The notes under the pieces were generated by a model that had not been told where the DNA came from, ran no database searches, and saw nothing but the letters and a program-made list of their open reading frames with translations. Positions 54,867-63,541 of a DNA stretch of 64,000 bases are shown in pieces. A program made the translations under genes and the position numbers. Every line of letters begins with the position of its first letter. Position 1 is the first letter of the stretch. Origin of the DNA: a gamma proteobacterium HdN1 (lineage in GTDB: Bacteria; Pseudomonadota; Gammaproteobacteria; Pseudomonadales; Ketobacteraceae); NCBI GenBank assembly GCA_000198515.1, contig FP929140.1:532527-596526 (forward strand). Reading direction: 5' to 3'.

Positions 54867-55763
54867 ATGAGCAATACCACCACCGCCACAGTCCATCAGC
54901 TCCACGTTGTAAAATCCGATCGCCGTTCTACCCAGAGCTTGTCAAAAAGCCCAGAAGCCCCAAAAGTGCGCCAACCGCACTTCGAATTTACCGAAGGCGG
55001 GGATTTGCCGCGCTATTGGTGGGATAACGACCCCGCCAAAACGCTGTTGTTGGCGGCGCTTTCCGCAACCTTTCCCCCTGGGGAGAAATTTTTTATTGAT
55101 TCCGTGCGCCATTACCAGCACCAGATTAAAGACCTTGAGCTTTTGCGGGCAATAAAAGGATTTATCGGCCAAGAGGCGCATCATTCCCGCGAACATCAAC
55201 TGATGAATGATTTGATGCAATCGCGTGGCATCGACCTTGCCCGCTTTGAACGCGAAATCCAGCACTTTATGGATGTGCTTCGTGAGCGACTAAGCCCCGA
55301 GCGCCAGCTTGCGCACACGGTGGCCGCAGAGCACTTTACCGCGATGATGGCGGATGCGCTGTTGCTGCAAAACGACGCGCTGGACGAGATGGATCCGCGA
55401 ATTGCCGCGCTTTGGGCATGGCATGCAATTGAGGAGACGGAGCACAAGGCGGTGGCGTTTGACGTGTTCAAGGCCATCGGCGGTAGCGAATGGGTGCGTG
55501 TGAGCGAAATGATGGTGGTGAGTGTAATGTTCCCGCTGTTCACTACGCTGCACTTAATCCAGTTGATGAAAGACGATGGCCAGCTTGGCAACCTGAGATC
55601 TTGGTTTGGGGCTGCGAACTATATGTGGGGGAAACCGGGCATTTTTCGCAAATTAATCCCTGAATACTTGCGCTATTACAGCCCGAAATTCCACCCGTGG
55701 AATCAAGATTCTCGCAAGCAGGTAGAGAAGGCGAAAAAGCGCTGGCTGGGAGACTGGGCGTAG
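54867..55763 (+). CDS. predicted metal-dependent hydrolase (PF10118-like)
   Basis: 298 residues. Ferritin-like helices with EAHHSREHQ, AAEHFTAMMADALL and AIEETEHKAVAFDVF, which fit a di-iron/di-metal centre made of Glu and His. The family is annotated as metal-dependent hydrolases, and some members act on lipids or membrane substrates. It has its own ribosome site (GAGGAT) and no clear partner. Confidence 0.8.
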   Translation: MSNTTTATVHQLHVVKSDRRSTQSLSKSPEAPKVRQPHFEFTEGGDLPRYWWDNDPAKTLLLAALSATFPPGEKFFIDSVRHYQHQIKDLELLRAIKGFIGQEAHHSREHQLMNDLMQSRGIDLARFEREIQHFMDVLRERLSPERQLAHTVAAEHFTAMMADALLLQNDALDEMDPRIAALWAWHAIEETEHKAVAFDVFKAIGGSEWVRVSEMMVVSVMFPLFTTLHLIQLMKDDGQLGNLRSWFGAANYMWGKPGIFRKLIPEYLRYYSPKFHPWNQDSRKQVEKAKKRWLGDWA

Positions 55764-55904: not shown

Positions 55905-57311
55905 ATGCGCATACCTTCTCTGTTTTCGGTCGGATTCGCCGCTTTCCTAAGTTCTACGCCGCTTGTGCTGGCAGATACCGTTTCAGACCTTTCTAATCAG
56001 GCCGCGGATTTTTTTGCGGAGCAGGCGGCAGATTCGCCTGCGGCACCACTGGACGGCGAGGGTGTTGTCGTTGCGGCAAAACCCAACCTTTGGTTGCAGA
56101 ACGCCCTCCAGCTTCAGCGCCATCTGGACGATCGCGAGCCGCTTGCTACTAGCAGTTTCCTGATGACGCACAATTCGGCCAACGCTGCCGCCTATCGAAC
56201 GGTCTTCTCCTACATTGACCCTAACCAGAAGCTCTCACTAGGCCAGCAATTGGGGGCGGGGATTCGTTCGATCGAGCTGGATGTGCATCAGTTCTTCTCG
56301 ATGCGCGGCTGGCCGTGGCAGTGGAAAAAACGCATTCTTTTGTGTCATGGGCAGAATAATCATTTGGGCTGTAGCCCTTACGATCGCGTGCTTTCCGCCG
56401 GGATTGATGAGGTAAAAGATTGGCTGAAGAAGGAAGAAAATCGCCAAGAAGTGATCGTGATTTATTTTGAAGATCATGTAGACGGCAATTATGCCGAGTT
56501 GGTGGATGCGGTAGCGGCTCGCTTGGGTGATTCGATTTATCGCCCCACTTCGGGCGCCAACTGCGAGGGGATTCCCATGCAGGTGAGCAAGCAAGACATT
56601 TTGGCAGCAGGAAAGCAAGTGTTGCTGATGGGTGGAAGTGAAGTGTGCCGTTCCAGCCATGGCTGGAATACGTGGGCATTCGCGGGCGTAGGGGATCGTC
56701 TTAACGGCTACCCTACGGGTGATCTTGCCCAGGTCAGTGATACCAATTGCCAGTTCGATCGAAGCTTTTACGACCGCTACTGGGTGCGTTTCTATGAAGA
56801 TCGCACCGTGATTTCCAGCTTATTTGCGAAACCAGATCGTTTTGGCGCGGAAGATGTTGAACGCTTGCAGAAATGCGGCGTGAATCTTATTGGATTTGAC
56901 CGCTTTTCACCGACAGATGCGCGTACTCGTGCGTATGTGTGGAGTTGGGATGAGGGGCAGCCCGCGGCAATAAGTGACGCAGCCTGCGCGTTATCACAAG
57001 TAAATGGCAGATTTTCCGCCAACGCATGTAGTGAAGTTGCACGTTATGCTTGCAGGGTTTCTGGCACCCATGAATGGCGAATCACCGAATCCGCAGGTAC
57101 CTGGCAGGAAGGTAAATTTTTGTGTGCCCACGAAACCGGCGGCGAAGCTGTTTTTGTGACCCCTACCAATGGCTATGACAATCAATCCCTGCAGAATGCG
57201 AAAGCGCAAGCCGGCGCGGAGAACGTCTGGATTGGATTGAGCCAACAGGATGGCGCACAAGCGTGGCAAACAAATGCTGGATCTGCTGCATCCGAGAGTA
57301 TGACGCAGTGA
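55905..57311 (+). CDS. secreted PI-PLC-like phosphodiesterase with C-terminal lectin-like domain
   Basis: 468 residues from the ATG at 55905. Signal peptide (MRIPSLFSVGFAAFLSSTPLVLA), so exported. Catalytic His pair of the PLC X domain: H89 in FLMTHNSANA and H148 in LLCHGQNN, with IRSIELDVHQF between. The last ~90 residues (CRVSGTHEWRITESAGTW, KFLCAHE, NVWIGLSQQDGAQAWQTN) look like a C-type-lectin fold. Candidate extracellular phosphoinositide- or GPI-cleaving enzyme. Its TGA overlaps the GTG of a lipase-chaperone-like gene. Confidence 0.8.
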   Translation: MRIPSLFSVGFAAFLSSTPLVLADTVSDLSNQAADFFAEQAADSPAAPLDGEGVVVAAKPNLWLQNALQLQRHLDDREPLATSSFLMTHNSANAAAYRTVFSYIDPNQKLSLGQQLGAGIRSIELDVHQFFSMRGWPWQWKKRILLCHGQNNHLGCSPYDRVLSAGIDEVKDWLKKEENRQEVIVIYFEDHVDGNYAELVDAVAARLGDSIYRPTSGANCEGIPMQVSKQDILAAGKQVLLMGGSEVCRSSHGWNTWAFAGVGDRLNGYPTGDLAQVSDTNCQFDRSFYDRYWVRFYEDRTVISSLFAKPDRFGAEDVERLQKCGVNLIGFDRFSPTDARTRAYVWSWDEGQPAAISDAACALSQVNGRFSANACSEVARYACRVSGTHEWRITESAGTWQEGKFLCAHETGGEAVFVTPTNGYDNQSLQNAKAQAGAENVWIGLSQQDGAQAWQTNAGSAASESMTQ

Positions 57312-58066
57312 AGGCACCCAAGCCGCAGCGGGCGTTCGCCGGTTTTGGACGCCCGCTCCTAATTTTTTGTGTGGCGGGGGCATTTGGGTTTGTTGTTTGG
57401 AACGTGGTCTGGGGCGTGATCGCAGCGAGGCTGGAATCACCGAAAAATGTGAAACCGGTTGCGGCGGTATCAAGCCACGGAGGTTCTGACGCTGCGATAG
57501 CGCGTGCAGGTGCGCCAGAACCAGAATTCAAAACCGCATTACAGCCGCCCACCTACAGCGATCAGCCTCTAGTAGAACAGGCGCGGCGTTATGAAATTGA
57601 CTTGATTGCCCTGTTTGACGCAATTCGTGAACGTTGCCTGCCAGAATGGGGCCGGAGTGCTTGTAATCATAAGGCGAGAGCATTTTTAGCAGAAAAAACT
57701 CAAGAAGCAGGGCGCAATCTCCTGCTTGAAATCTACGACCAAAATACCCGCTACGAAGACTATATTGCCACCTATCGGCCTCTTGAAGGGCTCGAAGTTG
57801 ACGCGATGTACGCCACCCTGCAGAAGCTGCGGGAACAGTTTTTTGCCCCCGAAGTACGTGCTTGGATGTTTGGCCCACAGGATGCGCGTATGCGCTATGA
57901 AGCGGCACTGCAGGAATGGAACAAGAACAAAGCGGATCATTTATCTGAAAATGAGTTGGCACAGCAAAAAGAGGCCCTGAAAAAAGCGGCACTCGGGGAA
58001 TTTTATCCGCTGTTTCACTCAATGCCAGAAGCGGTGGATGCCTTCCCTGTTATTGATACGAACTGA
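57308..58066 (+). CDS. lipase-chaperone-like inner-membrane protein (Lif family, remote)
   Basis: 252 residues, GTG start overlapping the PLC stop (GTGA). Layout matches lipase-specific foldases: a membrane anchor (~17-39), an Ala/Pro-rich linker (~44-80), then helical minidomains. YEIDLIALFDAIRERC occupies the place of the RxxFDYxLSA motif (only FD kept), NLLLEIYDQNTRYEDYIATYRPLE resembles the Lif central helix, and LREQFFAPEVRAWMFGPQDARMRYEAALQEW with HLSENELAQQKEALKKAAL matches the Lif C-terminal part. Likely a steric chaperone for the secreted PLC upstream. Inferred from sequence pattern only. Confidence 0.55.
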   Translation: MKAPKPQRAFAGFGRPLLIFCVAGAFGFVVWNVVWGVIAARLESPKNVKPVAAVSSHGGSDAAIARAGAPEPEFKTALQPPTYSDQPLVEQARRYEIDLIALFDAIRERCLPEWGRSACNHKARAFLAEKTQEAGRNLLLEIYDQNTRYEDYIATYRPLEGLEVDAMYATLQKLREQFFAPEVRAWMFGPQDARMRYEAALQEWNKNKADHLSENELAQQKEALKKAALGEFYPLFHSMPEAVDAFPVIDTN

Positions 58067-58127: not shown

Positions 58128-58988
58128 TTAGTTGCTGGCCTGAGATTTTGTGTTGCTCTCACCACTCGGCATTCGCACAGCATAGACCGAGAAGCTAGCT
58201 CCATAGGTGCTCTCTTTTACTTGGTCGCTTTGGTTTCCGCCCAGAAGGGTGAGATTGCCAGGTGTACCCTTCACGTAAAAACCGAGGTGAAATTTATCTT
58301 CGCCTTTGTCGTTTTTGTATTTTAACACCACCACCGCGCCCGGCTTCAGCATGCTCGGCTCACCCCATTTTGCCCAGTCTTTTGCGGCGGCGCTGTTCGT
58401 TCCGGAAATTCCATTTTGTTTCAGCGCCCAGTTTACGAAGGATGCGCACCATGCAGTGCGATCTGATTGTGCCTTAAGCGCAGTGGTATTGTGATATTCG
58501 ATAATGCGCGGATTGCTTCGCCCTGTTTTTTCAGCGCTCTCTTGCTGGCCGATTTCCGCTCTGGCGGTTTTCAACCAAGAAGGGTCGGCGCTACTTTGCT
58601 GATGATTTTGAACGGCAGAGGTGTTTTGAAGGTTGCGAATTTGTGAGGCGATTCTAGGGGATGCATAGCTTTGCAATAAATCGCTTTGGGGTACGCCGTA
58701 TTGAGAGCTGTTGGCGGCTGCATCGCTGCTTGCTGTGGATTCCTGAGTAGATTCACCGTTTGCAGCGGCTTTGGGAATATGGATTTGGTCACCCGGATAA
58801 ATCAGGTCAGGGTTGCGGATTTGCGGGTTGGCCTTGATTAAAGCGCTGAGGGAAACGCCGTACAGTTTGGCGATGCCGCTAAGCGTATCGCCGCGCTCGA
58901 CGGTATGGCTTGGAGTATTGCTGGTTTCGCTTTGGAGTGGAGCCGCGTAGCGGCCACTGGCAGTTGCCGAGGTGCTGGAAATGTTCAT
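58128..58988 (-). CDS. LysM-domain protein with TIGR02594/CHAP-like peptidase region
   Basis: 286 residues from the ATG at 58988; a start at 59120 would add 44 residues without a signal peptide and would span an inverted repeat. A LysM peptidoglycan-binding motif (VERGDTLSGIAKLYGVSLSALIKANPQIRNPDLIYPGDQIHIP) is followed by a domain with WCASFVNWALKQNGISG and FHLGFYVKG, where Cys and His are the likely catalytic pair. It may cleave peptide bonds in the wall. No clear secretion signal. Confidence 0.78.
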   Translation of the reverse strand: MNISSTSATASGRYAAPLQSETSNTPSHTVERGDTLSGIAKLYGVSLSALIKANPQIRNPDLIYPGDQIHIPKAAANGESTQESTASSDAAANSSQYGVPQSDLLQSYASPRIASQIRNLQNTSAVQNHQQSSADPSWLKTARAEIGQQESAEKTGRSNPRIIEYHNTTALKAQSDRTAWCASFVNWALKQNGISGTNSAAAKDWAKWGEPSMLKPGAVVVLKYKNDKGEDKFHLGFYVKGTPGNLTLLGGNQSDQVKESTYGASFSVYAVRMPSGESNTKSQASN

Positions 58989-59073
58989 TGGGAGTTGTGC
59001 CTTATAGTGCGGTGTCGTGGGATCGTGTTGTGTTGCAGAGTGTGACGCGATCGTTTTTTTTTGGGGTGACTCA

Positions 59074-59112
59074 CCAAATAAAGGCGGGCTATTTGCGGCG
59101 GCCTTTATTTGG
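59074..59112. repeat. 12-bp perfect inverted repeat
   Basis: CCAAATAAAGGC (59074-59085) and GCCTTTATTTGG (59101-59112) with 15 bases between, in the upstream region of the LysM gene and just before the small ORF at 59130. Could be a terminator-like stem, an operator, or a mobile-element scar. Confidence 0.6.
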
Positions 59113-59129
59113 TTGTGCATAGAAATATC

Positions 59130-59555: not shown

Positions 59556-60878
59556 ATGAACAACCAGATCGAAGCCCTCTTCACCACCGCACTTGGCCTG
59601 CAGCCGCCCTGGCACGTCGCCAAGGTCGAGCTCAACACGGCCAAGCGGCGCATCGACTTCGAGGTTGAGCACACCGGCAAGCGTGCAGCCTGCCCTGCGT
59701 GCGGGGTCGAGCATCAGTTGATCCATGACCGGGTGCGCCGCAGTTGGCGACACCTGGATTTCTTCCAGTTCGAAGCGTGGTTGCATGCCGAGGTGCCGCG
59801 CGTGCAGTGCTCGGGCTGCGGCAAGACCACGCAGTTGCCGGTGCCGTGGGCACGAGAGGGCAGTGGCTTCACGTTGCTGTTCGAGGCGCTGGGCCTGTCG
59901 CTGTGCCGGGAATTGCCGGTAGCCCAGGCCGCCAATCAGATGCGGGTTGCGCCAAAGCGGCTGTGGCGGCGGGTGCGCCACTATGTCGAGGTGGCCCGTG
60001 CCAAGGACGACATGTCGGGCGTGCGCCACGTGGGCATTGACGAGACCAGCGTCAAGCGTGGGCACCAGTACATCACCGTGGTGCATGACCTGGCGGCCAA
60101 GCGCTTGCTGTTTGCCTGCCCCGGTCGTGACCATCAAACCTTGGGGGCCTTCGCCGAGGATATGCGCGTGCATGGCGGCGATCCGGCCGCCATCGAACAC
60201 GCCTGCATCGACATGAGCGCGGCGTACGCCAAGGGGATCGAGCAGTCGCTGCCGAACGCCCAGATCAGCTATGACCGCTTTCACGTCGTGGCGCTTGCCA
60301 ACGCGGCGATGGATGAGGTGCGACGCGAAGAGATGCGCAACTCGGCAGAAGCGGTCCGCGAGGCGGTGGGCGTGCACGGCAAGAAGACCCTTCGCCAACT
60401 GCTGTGGGGCATGCGCAAGGACTCGGCGAGCTGGACTCGCGCGCAGTTCGAGGCGATGCACTGGCTGCAGCGCTCGAATCTGAAGAGCGCGCGGGCCTGG
60501 CGACTCAAGCAGGCCCTGCGGCTGGTCTACCGCGAGGCGCGTGACAGCAATAGCGAAGCGATCGCCCTCGGCGCATTGACGAAGTGGATGAGTTGGGCGC
60601 GACGCTCGCGGCTCGAGCCGTTCAAGCGCCTGGCGGTCACCTTGAAAGAACATCTCGGCGGTGTCGTGCGCGGCATGCTCGACGGGCGCAGCAACGCCTA
60701 CGTCGAGGCGATGAACAGCCTGTTGCAGAAGGCGAAAGCCGCCGCCCGAGGTTTCCGTGACCCGGAAAACTTCATCGCGATCGCCTACCTGCGAATGTCC
60801 AAGCTCGAGCATCTACCGCAAAGCCCCTTGGTGCCGGCAATCGCCCGCGACTACGGGCGCTACCGTCATGTATGTTGA
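59556..60878 (+). CDS. ISL3-family transposase
   Basis: 440 residues. N-terminal zinc-binding part (CPACGVEHQLIHD, VQCSGCGKTTQLP), a helix-turn-helix, then the DDE domain with Asp in RHVGIDETSVKRGHQY, Asp in EHACIDMSAAYAKG and Glu in SNAYVEAMNSLLQKAKAAARGFRD. Complete and intact, so the IS may be active. It ends inside the right repeat. Confidence 0.95.
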   Translation: MNNQIEALFTTALGLQPPWHVAKVELNTAKRRIDFEVEHTGKRAACPACGVEHQLIHDRVRRSWRHLDFFQFEAWLHAEVPRVQCSGCGKTTQLPVPWAREGSGFTLLFEALGLSLCRELPVAQAANQMRVAPKRLWRRVRHYVEVARAKDDMSGVRHVGIDETSVKRGHQYITVVHDLAAKRLLFACPGRDHQTLGAFAEDMRVHGGDPAAIEHACIDMSAAYAKGIEQSLPNAQISYDRFHVVALANAAMDEVRREEMRNSAEAVREAVGVHGKKTLRQLLWGMRKDSASWTRAQFEAMHWLQRSNLKSARAWRLKQALRLVYREARDSNSEAIALGALTKWMSWARRSRLEPFKRLAVTLKEHLGGVVRGMLDGRSNAYVEAMNSLLQKAKAAARGFRDPENFIAIAYLRMSKLEHLPQSPLVPAIARDYGRYRHVC

Positions 60879-60972: not shown

Positions 60973-61079
60973 TTAAGGATGGTCTGAAAAAGTCATTTCT
61001 CGAAAAATGGAGCCCAGTAACCATGCGGGATACAGGGCAGCGGTTTCGCGAAAAACGGGCTTTTTCAGAGCTTCCTTAA
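60973..61079. mobile_element. 107-bp MITE-like element
   Basis: Terminal inverted repeats TTAAGGATGGTCTGAAAAAG (from 60973) and the complement of CTTTTTCAGAGCTTCCTTAA (to 61079) match at about 18 of 20 positions, and both ends carry TTAA. The centre holds no ORF. The right end contains the stop codon of the metal ATPase gene. It resembles the ends of IS5-type elements; no transposase present. Confidence 0.6.
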
Positions 61080-63541
61080 CCTTCAGGTTTATATTCACGC
61101 TCTTTATAGGCGAGCAACCGAAGTGCGTTGAACACTACTACCAAAGTTGAACCTTCATGGGCTGCGACGGCGGGACCAATTCCCAGACCGAGAATCGTTG
61201 CCGGGACCAGAATCGCCACAACGCCAAGACTGATGAAGAGGTTCTGGCGGATGATCTTCCGGGTGCGTCGACTGAGTTCGACCGCAAACGGCAGGTGCGA
61301 AAGATCGTCCGCCATCAAGGCAACGTCGGCAGTCTCCAACGCCACGTCCGAGCCGGCCGCCCCCATGGCGATGCCGACTGTCGCATGGGCCATGGCGGGC
61401 GCATCATTCACACCATCTCCTACCATCGCGACCTCAGTGGTGTCGCGCAGCTTTTTGATGGCCTCTACCTTGTCCTCCGGCATCAGATCACCCCATGCCT
61501 CGTCCAAGCCAACGTGCTTGGCGACGGCATCGGCGACGCGTTGGTTGTCGCCAGAAATCATGATCATGCGATTGATACCGATGGCACGCAGGCGTTCGAG
61601 CGCCGGCCGCGCCGTTGCGCGTGGCGTATCCATCAAACCGATGACCCCGAGATCACGACCTGCGCGGCGTACCGCCATGGTGGTGCGCCCCTCGATGCGG
61701 AGCCGTTCGACCGCCTCGGCGACCGGCTCCGTCAAGGCGGGTATCCTGTCGCTGCCGAACATTTCCGCCTTGCCGATTTCCACGGCATGTCCCTCGATCT
61801 CGGCGATCACCCCTTTGCCGGTGAGGCTACGAAGCCCGGATGCAACGGGAAGCGTCGTGCTGCCAAGGCGCTCCACGCCATCCTGTGCGATGGCCCGCGC
61901 CAAGGGATGATCGCTCAGCGCTTCGACGGCAACTGCCGTGGCCAGTAGCTCGGTCTCGTTGACGCCCGGTGCTGGCAGGACATCGGTGATACGTGGCCGT
62001 CCTTCGGTCAAGGTGCCGGTCTTGTCGAAGGCCAGGGCATCAAGCGAACCGAGCTTCTCAAGCGGGGCTCCACCTTTTATCAGTACACCGCCACGAGCAG
62101 CGCGCGCGACGCCAGACAAGATGGCGCTCGGCGTTGCTATGGCGAGCGCACACGGGCTGGCCGCTACCAGTACGGCCATGGCGCGGTAGAAACTGTCCCG
62201 GAACGGCTCGTCTACTACAACCCAGGCGAACAAGAGCAGGAAGGATGTAGCCAGTACGGCCGGCACGAAGACGCGTTCGAAGCGGTCAGTGAGTCGCTGC
62301 GTGGGAGATTGCCGCGTCTCGGCTTCGCTGACCATTTTGACCACGCGGGCCAGCGCGCTTTCCGAGGCAAGTTTGGTCACGGCGATGTCTATCGCGCCGG
62401 CACCGTTAATGGTGCCGGCAAACACGCGATGCGCCGCGTCCAAAAGATCAGGCCGGATATTGGCCTGCGCCGGGTCGGGAACCGGGCGTTTATCGACGGG
62501 CACGCTTTCTCCAGTGACCGGGGCCTGGTTGATGCTGGTTTCGCCGGACACCACGAAACCGTCGGCTGGCAAACGTTCGTTGGGCCGCACGAGCACCAAG
62601 TCACCCAGAACCAGTTCCTGCACGCCTATTTCCCTGACCTCGCCGTCGCGGCGGACACGGGCGGTCTCCGGCGCGAGTTCGGCCAGGGCTTCAATCGCCC
62701 GCTTGGCCCGGCCCATGGCGTAGTGCTCCAGCGAATGGCCCAGGCTGAACAGGAACAGCAGCAAGGCGCCTTCGGCCCAAGCACCGAGCGCCGCCGCACC
62801 GGCGGCGGCGACCAGCATCAACGTGTCGATCTCGAAGCGTTTGAGCCTCAGGTTCTGAACTGCTTCTTTGACGGTATAGAAACCACCAAAGAGGTAGGCA
62901 CCGAGATAGTTGGCGATGGCGAGCCAATCTGCGACGGGCGCCCACTTATCCAACGCGAATCCGGTGGCAAGAAGTCCTCCGCACAGCAGGGAGAATATCA
63001 ATTCACTGTTTTCGCCAAACACACCGGCGTGACGGTGCGCATCACCGTCGCCATCTTTGAGCTGATCACTATCACGCCCAGCTGGGGGGTCTTCGGGCTT
63101 TCGGTTGACACCAACTTCCGCGAGCGCATCACGAATGTCATCCTCTGAGATTTTCTCCCTATCTAATTCCACCCGTACCACGCCACCAATACTGACCTCT
63201 GCTTCAAGCACGCCAGGCATGGAGAGCAGTCGTTTGGTCAAGGTACGTGCAAGTCGTTGGTGTGTGACGCCCTTGACCTGCCAGATCAGATGACCGTACC
63301 GCTGGGTAATACGCGCACCGGCAGCTTCGACGAGTTCGCGGATGCGCGCGAGCGATGGCGCTTCGGAGGCATAGTGAATGCATACCTCATGCGCCTGATT
63401 GTTGACGCCGCTGCGGATATGAACCTCTTCTATCCCTTGTTGCGCTCTCAGTTCAACGAGAAGACGCTGTACACAGGCGTCGGCATCGTGCGCAATATCC
63501 GGCAGTAGAACCGGAAGGTCGATCTGTAGTTTTTCAGTCAT
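61076..63541 (-). CDS. P1B-4-type heavy-metal exporting ATPase, CzcP-like
   Basis: 821 residues. Phosphorylation site DKTGTLTEG, hinge GDGVNDAPAM and A-domain TGES are present. The transmembrane metal motif is SPC (AASPCALAIATP), and the last part has HEGST, together the signature of P1B-4 pumps (Co2+/Zn2+/Fe2+), not the CPC of CadA/ZntA. Two HMA-like N-terminal domains lack CxxC, and a His/Asp-rich linker (DGDGDAHRHAG) precedes the membrane part. The adjacent CzcA-type pump suggests zinc/cobalt/cadmium resistance. Confidence 0.9.
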   Translation of the reverse strand: MTEKLQIDLPVLLPDIAHDADACVQRLLVELRAQQGIEEVHIRSGVNNQAHEVCIHYASEAPSLARIRELVEAAGARITQRYGHLIWQVKGVTHQRLARTLTKRLLSMPGVLEAEVSIGGVVRVELDREKISEDDIRDALAEVGVNRKPEDPPAGRDSDQLKDGDGDAHRHAGVFGENSELIFSLLCGGLLATGFALDKWAPVADWLAIANYLGAYLFGGFYTVKEAVQNLRLKRFEIDTLMLVAAAGAAALGAWAEGALLLFLFSLGHSLEHYAMGRAKRAIEALAELAPETARVRRDGEVREIGVQELVLGDLVLVRPNERLPADGFVVSGETSINQAPVTGESVPVDKRPVPDPAQANIRPDLLDAAHRVFAGTINGAGAIDIAVTKLASESALARVVKMVSEAETRQSPTQRLTDRFERVFVPAVLATSFLLLFAWVVVDEPFRDSFYRAMAVLVAASPCALAIATPSAILSGVARAARGGVLIKGGAPLEKLGSLDALAFDKTGTLTEGRPRITDVLPAPGVNETELLATAVAVEALSDHPLARAIAQDGVERLGSTTLPVASGLRSLTGKGVIAEIEGHAVEIGKAEMFGSDRIPALTEPVAEAVERLRIEGRTTMAVRRAGRDLGVIGLMDTPRATARPALERLRAIGINRMIMISGDNQRVADAVAKHVGLDEAWGDLMPEDKVEAIKKLRDTTEVAMVGDGVNDAPAMAHATVGIAMGAAGSDVALETADVALMADDLSHLPFAVELSRRTRKIIRQNLFISLGVVAILVPATILGLGIGPAVAAHEGSTLVVVFNALRLLAYKEREYKPEG

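Follow-up and report, generated by a model that had tools for sequence, protein, structure and literature searches.

The window analysed here, a 64,000-nucleotide stretch of the gamma proteobacterium HdN1 (contig FP929140.1), carries a gene for a secreted phospholipase C-type enzyme (hereafter, the PLC) that is followed directly by a gene for a membrane protein related to lipase foldases, or Lifs (the partner). The two genes are joined by a 4-base overlap, GTGA, in which the PLC stop and the next GTG coincide. This overlap was pointed out in the initial annotation of the locus and is present in the sequence. Because the genes overlap, coupled translation of the PLC and the partner is suggested. 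Codon usage indicates that the partner frame is coding (+0.255 bits per codon, with the remaining five frames negative), and translation might also begin earlier, from the in-frame GTG at 57263. The flanking ORFs, at 54867-55763 on the PLC strand and at 58128-59120 on the opposite strand (LysM-like by eye), look unrelated. Further downstream are a transposase-like gene (59556-60878) and a P-type metal-ATPase-like gene (61076-63541), both recognized by eye. Features of the two genes are listed in Table 1.

Table 1. Features of the PLC and partner genes, in window coordinates
Feature	Position	Strand	Basis
Gene for secreted enzyme of predicted PI-PLC fold with lectin-like tail (PLC), 468 aa	55905..57311	+	Pfam, alignments, AF2, Foldseek
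Predicted Sec signal peptide, residues 1-23	55905..55973	+	by eye
Insertion of ~29 residues near mature N terminus, about residues 32-62	55998..56090	+	alignments; limits by eye
His89 of THNS, first catalytic-type histidine	56169..56171	+	invariant in alignments
His148 of LLCHG, second catalytic-type histidine	56346..56348	+	invariant in alignments
Lectin-like tail, residues 346-463	56940..57293	+	Pfam, alignment, AF2
GTGA overlap, PLC TGA stop / partner GTG start	57308..57311	+	sequence
Gene for putative MD2-less Lif-family membrane protein (partner), 252 aa	57308..58066	+	Pfam, class HMMs, coding score
Transmembrane helix, residues 14-42	57347..57433	+	sequence; low-confidence AF2 model
Linker with Ala and Pro, residues 43-85	57434..57562	+	sequence; low-confidence model shows no structure
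Mini-domain-1-like helices, residues 86-165	57563..57802	+	alignments; profile match only from about residue 111
Start of extended-helical-domain-like region, residues 166-228, LREQFFAPEVRAWMFG to LSENELAQQKEALKKA	57803..57991	+	Pfam, alignments

The annotation had assigned to the PLC the histidine pair of PI-PLC X-domain enzymes instead of a lipase fold, and both alignment and modelling agree with this assignment. Residues H89, N90, R121, D126, and H148 are invariant across 30 aligned PLC sequences, and we take H89 and H148 to be the catalytic histidine pair of PI-PLC X-domain type. The match to the Pfam PI-PLC-X profile (14.5 bits) is below its cut-off of 23.1. An AF2 model based on 30 sequences had a pLDDT of 84.1. 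Its best Foldseek match was a eukaryotic PLC (E 1.5e-7), Listeria PI-PLC (1aod) was found at 8.2e-7, and VIA superposed the barrel on 1qat with Z 19.2 (rmsd 3.0, 227 aligned) and on 1aod with Z 18.6 (rmsd 3.1, 238 aligned). As modelled, the barrel has the PI-PLC fold.

The lectin-like tail proposed for the PLC was recovered as well, with 21.5 bits to Pfam Lectin_C, just below the cut-off of 22.6. Nine of 14 aligned relatives end at approximately the same place (the remaining ones carry additional domains), so the tail seems untruncated. A truncated tail or a frameshift at the 3' end of the PLC gene was considered and ruled out by these relatives and by the frame beyond the stop, inspected by eye. 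Lectin-like modules of this type also occur in very large frames (>1700 and >2700 aa; L033, L034, and L035), some of which have several copies. At the other end of the protein, the stretch between the signal core and the motif histidine comprises 72 residues, compared with a median of 40 and a maximum of 70 in 57 relatives, a set that includes some duplicates and in which only four reach 58-70. The N-terminal insertion may be a docking element, as a single case.

Lifs serve as a model for steric chaperones that are dedicated to lipases; they act on their clients in the periplasm, ahead of type II secretion. In the partner, the proposed membrane anchor and Ala/Pro linker are seen in the sequence; the AF2 model of the protein, modelled alone, has a pLDDT of 53.6 and is too poor for structure searches. 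The sole Pfam match with E<1 is Lipase_chap (PF03280), at 25.4 bits (E 1.7e-5) and just below the cut-off of 25.7; it joins residues 149-227 to profile positions 8-90. In a genome-wide Pfam scan, the same match had 26.5 bits and was above the cut-off. The NCBIfam model PRK01294 gave 14.6 (cut-off 285). We also built HMMs from which the partner was excluded, and used as controls 1000 composition-matched shuffles of the partner region behind the anchor. The partner scored 25.8 bits with the HMM of 134 lipase-linked Lifs (best shuffle, 7.8), 36.4 bits with that of 23 Lifs from PETase/LNT neighbourhoods (best shuffle, 11.1), and 19.3 bits with that of three Exo_endo_phos-linked Lifs (best shuffle, 6.2). 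The first two of these HMMs, when run against 8151 ORFs, retrieved the partner with E 3.7e-6 and 2.4e-9, respectively. A profile of 21 divergent Lifs, including the partner, matched the solved Lif structures 9g8u (5.1e-26) and 2es4 (2.9e-22), and also 5ovm and 6gsf, with much of the score surely carried by the other 20 rows.

It could be argued that this likeness reflects a mere charged helical pattern, as the Pfam match falls just short of its cut-off, with 83 of 192 profile positions matched, and as the partner alone, compared with solved structures, finds a Lif only at E 0.66. The distance to the best of the shuffles and the low E-value in the 8151-ORF search, both with the lipase-linked HMM to which the partner had not contributed, largely refute this explanation, and we regard it as hardly tenable. 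Homology of the C-terminal helices of the partner to Lifs is well supported by these sequence comparisons.

The initial annotation's proposal of Lif-like helices therefore holds with regard to homology, but the partner is not a complete Lif. The Lif profile match covers about residues 111-227 and ends at position 240 of the 358 positions of the lipase-linked Lif HMM, leaving no counterpart of mini-domain 2 (MD2). By sequence, the partner is a half-Lif, not a protein with the full arrangement of mini-domain 1 (MD1), extended helical domain (EHD), and MD2. The RxxFDYxLSA motif, described at the outset as only partly kept, is reduced to FD alone (residues 103-104, placed by eye and outside the profile-matched stretch), and MAFFT alignments position the helix bearing it off the motif. 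When placed by eye, the FD of the partner is 71 residues ahead of the EHD arginine motif, the same distance as in L001, another Lif of this genome; an ungapped comparison of the two proteins gave 17 identical residues of 115. With MD2 absent, the motif curtailed, and a neighbour other than a lipase, the partner falls outside a strict definition of a Lif, and it is best read as a protein that probably works like one.

A census of Lif relatives provides the background for these features. It drew mostly on 390 sampled genomes of the order, and the recruiting HMM was iterated and absorbed the partner en route (L269 was left out). After removal of 11 ORFs sharing the last 200 residues from 200, there were 189 distinct Lif ORFs among the matches listed. 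Neighbour classes were assigned by iterated local HMMs within 1500 bases, the GWSMG/PETase label being a loose one (L066 has a GHSQG box). A lipase-like gene was present within 1.5 kb of 134 Lif ORFs. The others had PETase-like and/or LNT-like (23), Exo_endo_phos (3), GMC (1), S15-type (1), or PLC (1) neighbours, or no recognized enzyme nearby (26). Since the recruiting HMM had absorbed the partner, the PETase/LNT and Exo_endo_phos sets were recruited with its help. The 26 unassigned loci may hide lipases, because many have only 1.5 kb flanks; one of them, L266, has a long Lif-like gene that follows a gene matching GDSL weakly (22.8 bits against a cut-off of 32.9). The census HMM missed at least one Lif detected by Pfam, L126, which adjoins an Exo_endo_phos gene. 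A Pfam check of nine Lif neighbours bore out their classes: PETase was matched with 383 and 49 bits, three neighbours gave Exo_endo_phos at 45-60 bits, and the others gave GMC_oxred, Peptidase_S15, LNT_N, and the weak GDSL match of L266. The presence of Lif relatives beside other enzyme classes makes a Lif next to a non-lipase no isolated oddity; adjacency to a non-lipase enzyme does not prove that this enzyme is the client.

Several arrangements recurred in the census. A PETase-like hydrolase gene, two tandem Lif-like genes (long and short), and an LNT-like gene form a cluster in L108, L111, L113, L115, L116, L281, and L282, and versions with no PETase-like gene nearby were seen in L104/L112, L109, and L110. 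Pfam assignments for this cluster come from L108 only, where the PETase match is the 383-bit one and the LNT-like protein consists of LNT_N and CN_hydrolase. We found no description of the cluster in the open-licence literature. In L122, L126, L072, and L123, an Exo_endo_phos (sphingomyelinase-like) gene directly precedes a Lif-like gene, with overlaps of 4 bases and 1 base in L122 and L126 and gaps of 4 and <200 bases in L072 and L123, respectively. A Lif-like gene follows a GMC oxidoreductase gene (cholesterol-oxidase-like by eye) in L121, and a short one follows an S15-type hydrolase gene in L114. The best phmmer match of the partner is L122 (E 8e-4, with two aligned Cys); as regards kinship to these sphingomyelinase-linked Lifs, the class HMMs favour the PETase/LNT set, the Exo_endo_phos HMM being built from three sequences.

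Half-Lifs without MD2 account for 14 of the 189 ORFs with the partner included. The other 13 (of 188) occur in PETase/LNT neighbourhoods (nine), an S15-type neighbourhood (one), and places with no recognized enzyme (three). In its loose form, the FDY motif was present in 60 of 134 lipase-linked Lifs, in 16 of the 26 unassigned, and in none of the 29 in other enzyme neighbourhoods, the partner among them. The strict motif, RxxFDY(F/C)L(S/T)A, was found in only 22 of 189 Lif ORFs and is, for this reason, a weak criterion of membership.

The initial annotation also raised the question of whether the pair is always adjacent in a genome survey. The answer was negative: the PLC/partner pair is not conserved and rests on one genome. 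At 71 other PLC-family loci, the flanking sequences yielded no Lif with an iterated Lif HMM or with seven further HMMs. Including that of the window, the 72 loci comprise 30 with 1.5 kb flanks (the window's is one) and 42 with up to 6 kb; in the 29 other short-flank loci the match may cover part of a gene, some contigs end earlier, and several genomes are duplicated, while L033-L035 match the lectin-like tail only and L165-L168 match weakly. Besides the partner, the seven HMMs gave only weak matches, the best of which (E 0.0013) lay at the border of L133, with >5 kb between it and the PLC there. PLC matches were found in 34 of the 390 sampled genomes of the order, counting the window's own and some that match by the lectin tail only, and at 42 loci in named records, e.g., of Hahella, Microbulbifer, Alcanivorax, Shewanella, and Desulfoluna. 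A probe of genome contigs with P0001 alone had 48 pattern matches and no confirmed relative; the 42 loci were obtained with alignment A2. Full Pfam lists, with positions compared by eye, showed no Lif adjoining a PLC gene in 29 of the 33 other PLC-matched genomes of the order; in the named genomes, Lif contigs were not matched to PLC contigs in this comparison. In the nearest case, G007, a gene with lectin-like modules only begins ~1.6 kb beyond a Lif, which is itself paired with a lipase-like gene.

Close relatives of the partner were similarly scarce. A search among 95 relatives gave a single match (E 6.1e-4) in a frame with stops, and searches against plasmids and PHROGs gave none. Matches in five of 368 other genomes of the class, with E between 6e-4 and 7e-3 and with internal stops in three, were taken as chance. 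Profile A5 identified six other genomes in the class, three of them weakly; the match in G733 adjoins a lipase-like gene, and those in G643 and G531 lie, by eye, in clusters of the PETase-like/two-Lif/LNT-like type.

The absence of Lifs from the 71 other loci implies that such PLCs usually manage without one. That relatives of the PLC cope in this way, and that the partner lacks MD2 and most of the lipase-type motif, would fit a Lif descendant that has taken on another job, e.g., as a membrane tether of the PLC, an inhibitor or self-protection factor, or a delivery helper to the secretion machinery, and is not a folding catalyst. We consider this unlikely, given that 10 of the 13 other half-Lifs are in neighbourhoods of secreted enzymes and that, to our knowledge, the characterized Lif members are lipase foldases. 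A second explanation sees in the partner a relic of a lipase-Lif pair: the lipase would have been lost together with the 3' half of the foldase gene, and what remains would lie behind the PLC gene by chance. The restriction of the pair to one genome and the transposase-like gene starting 1.5 kb downstream would be in line with such a history; an open frame with coding signal, the GTGA overlap, and the recurrence of half-Lifs speak against it and make it rather improbable.

Lipase_chap matches occur at three places in this genome: L001 (153.7 bits), L002 (32.6 bits), and the partner. Both L001 and L002 adjoin lipase-like genes, which were identified by eye, the AHSQG and GHSQG boxes serving as markers. 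The partner might then be a chance neighbour of the PLC that assists one of these two lipases, or another client, encoded elsewhere; a Lif serving a distant gene has a precedent in P. aeruginosa, where LipB is listed for the distant LipC (PMC4713064, Table 1). As each lipase-like gene has its own adjacent Lif, and as the gene overlap points to translation coupled with that of the PLC, we give this possibility very low odds. The genome also encodes GspD (576.8 bits, cut-off 351).

Under our preferred reading, to which we assign a probability of roughly 60%, the partner belongs to the Lif superfamily as a divergent member of half the usual size, and its task is to act, from its inner-membrane anchor, as a dedicated periplasmic chaperone of the adjacent PLC before type II secretion. 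Homology, architecture, gene overlap, the PI-PLC fold, GspD, and the two lipase-Lif pairs of the genome are shown by the analysis; binding, folding aid, and the secretion route are inferred. In its favour we count the Lif HMM scores relative to shuffles, the FD-arginine spacing, the lipase-Lif pairs, the non-lipase neighbours of other Lifs, the recurring half-Lifs, GspD, and the long N terminus of the PLC. Against it we count the Lif-less PLC loci, the missing MD2, the lack of a close partner homolog, the E-value of the partner alone against solved Lifs, its low identity to L001, the MAFFT placement of the FD helix off the motif, and the poor AF2 model. In the proposed mechanism, the PLC would enter the periplasm via Sec, where the anchored partner, made by coupled translation, would bind the emerging enzyme through its MD1/EHD-like helices. 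The partner would then aid PLC folding or keep the PLC secretion-competent, and hand it over to the type II secretion system. Client recognition may have shifted to the MD1/EHD of the partner or to the N-terminal insertion of the PLC.

The finding of a PLC beside a Lif relative hints that the clients of this chaperone family may include enzymes other than lipases. More tentatively, and with slightly less than even confidence, Lifs could be viewed as a superfamily of client-matched membrane foldases (for PLC, PET-hydrolase-like, sphingomyelinase-like, GMC, and other enzymes), with MD1 and half of the EHD, without MD2, as the minimal unit and the partner as the PLC branch. If true, a Lif relative serving a TIM-barrel phosphodiesterase, alongside those next to PET-hydrolase-like and sphingomyelinase-like enzymes, would illustrate how steric chaperones switch clients and how much the MD1 half achieves by itself, and could explain the failed folding of some secreted enzymes in foreign hosts.

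Published work offers several points of contact. Membrane-bound chaperones have been proposed for other type II effectors (PMC4713064, 2016), and a table in the same paper lists, next to a Burkholderia non-haemolytic PLC, a hypothetical protein whose fold is not given there. For P. aeruginosa LipH, a leading part in client recognition has been proposed for MD2, and a contribution to folding and release for MD1, with RxxFDY(F/C)L(S/T)A quoted as the MD1 consensus (PMC13381987). A lipase with its chaperone is the subject of PMC13101487. In the open-licence literature, including the accessible portions of PMC4613230, PMC9638971, PMC4713064, and PMC12111023, we found no description of a Lif-PI-PLC pair.

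Compared with known systems, the PLC shares the barrel fold and the histidine pair with PI-PLC X-domain enzymes (1aod, 1ptd, and 5fyr) and differs in scoring below the Pfam cut-off and in having a lectin-like tail. CpaB and other membrane-bound chaperones of type II secretion are, like the partner, membrane-anchored, and are encoded beside a type II-secreted enzyme, as the partner would be, but CpaB is described as SRPBCC-like (PMC4713064). The Exo_endo_phos-linked Lifs (L122, L072, L123, and L126) resemble the partner in having a phosphodiesterase-type neighbour; no half-Lif is found among the three that the census includes, and the class HMMs do not single out this class. The short Lifs in PETase/LNT neighbourhoods (L108, L111, and L113) are similar to the partner in length and in the absence of MD2, but each is the second of two tandem Lif-like genes, whereas the window has one. 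From Lif/LipB/LipH proteins (PF03280; 2es4, 9g8u, and 5ovm), the partner differs in the absence of MD2, the reduction of FDY to FD, and a neighbour that is a PI-PLC-fold enzyme instead of a lipase; with them it appears to share an N-terminal anchor, a variable linker, MD1-like and first EHD-like helices, and a gene located right after that of the secreted protein.
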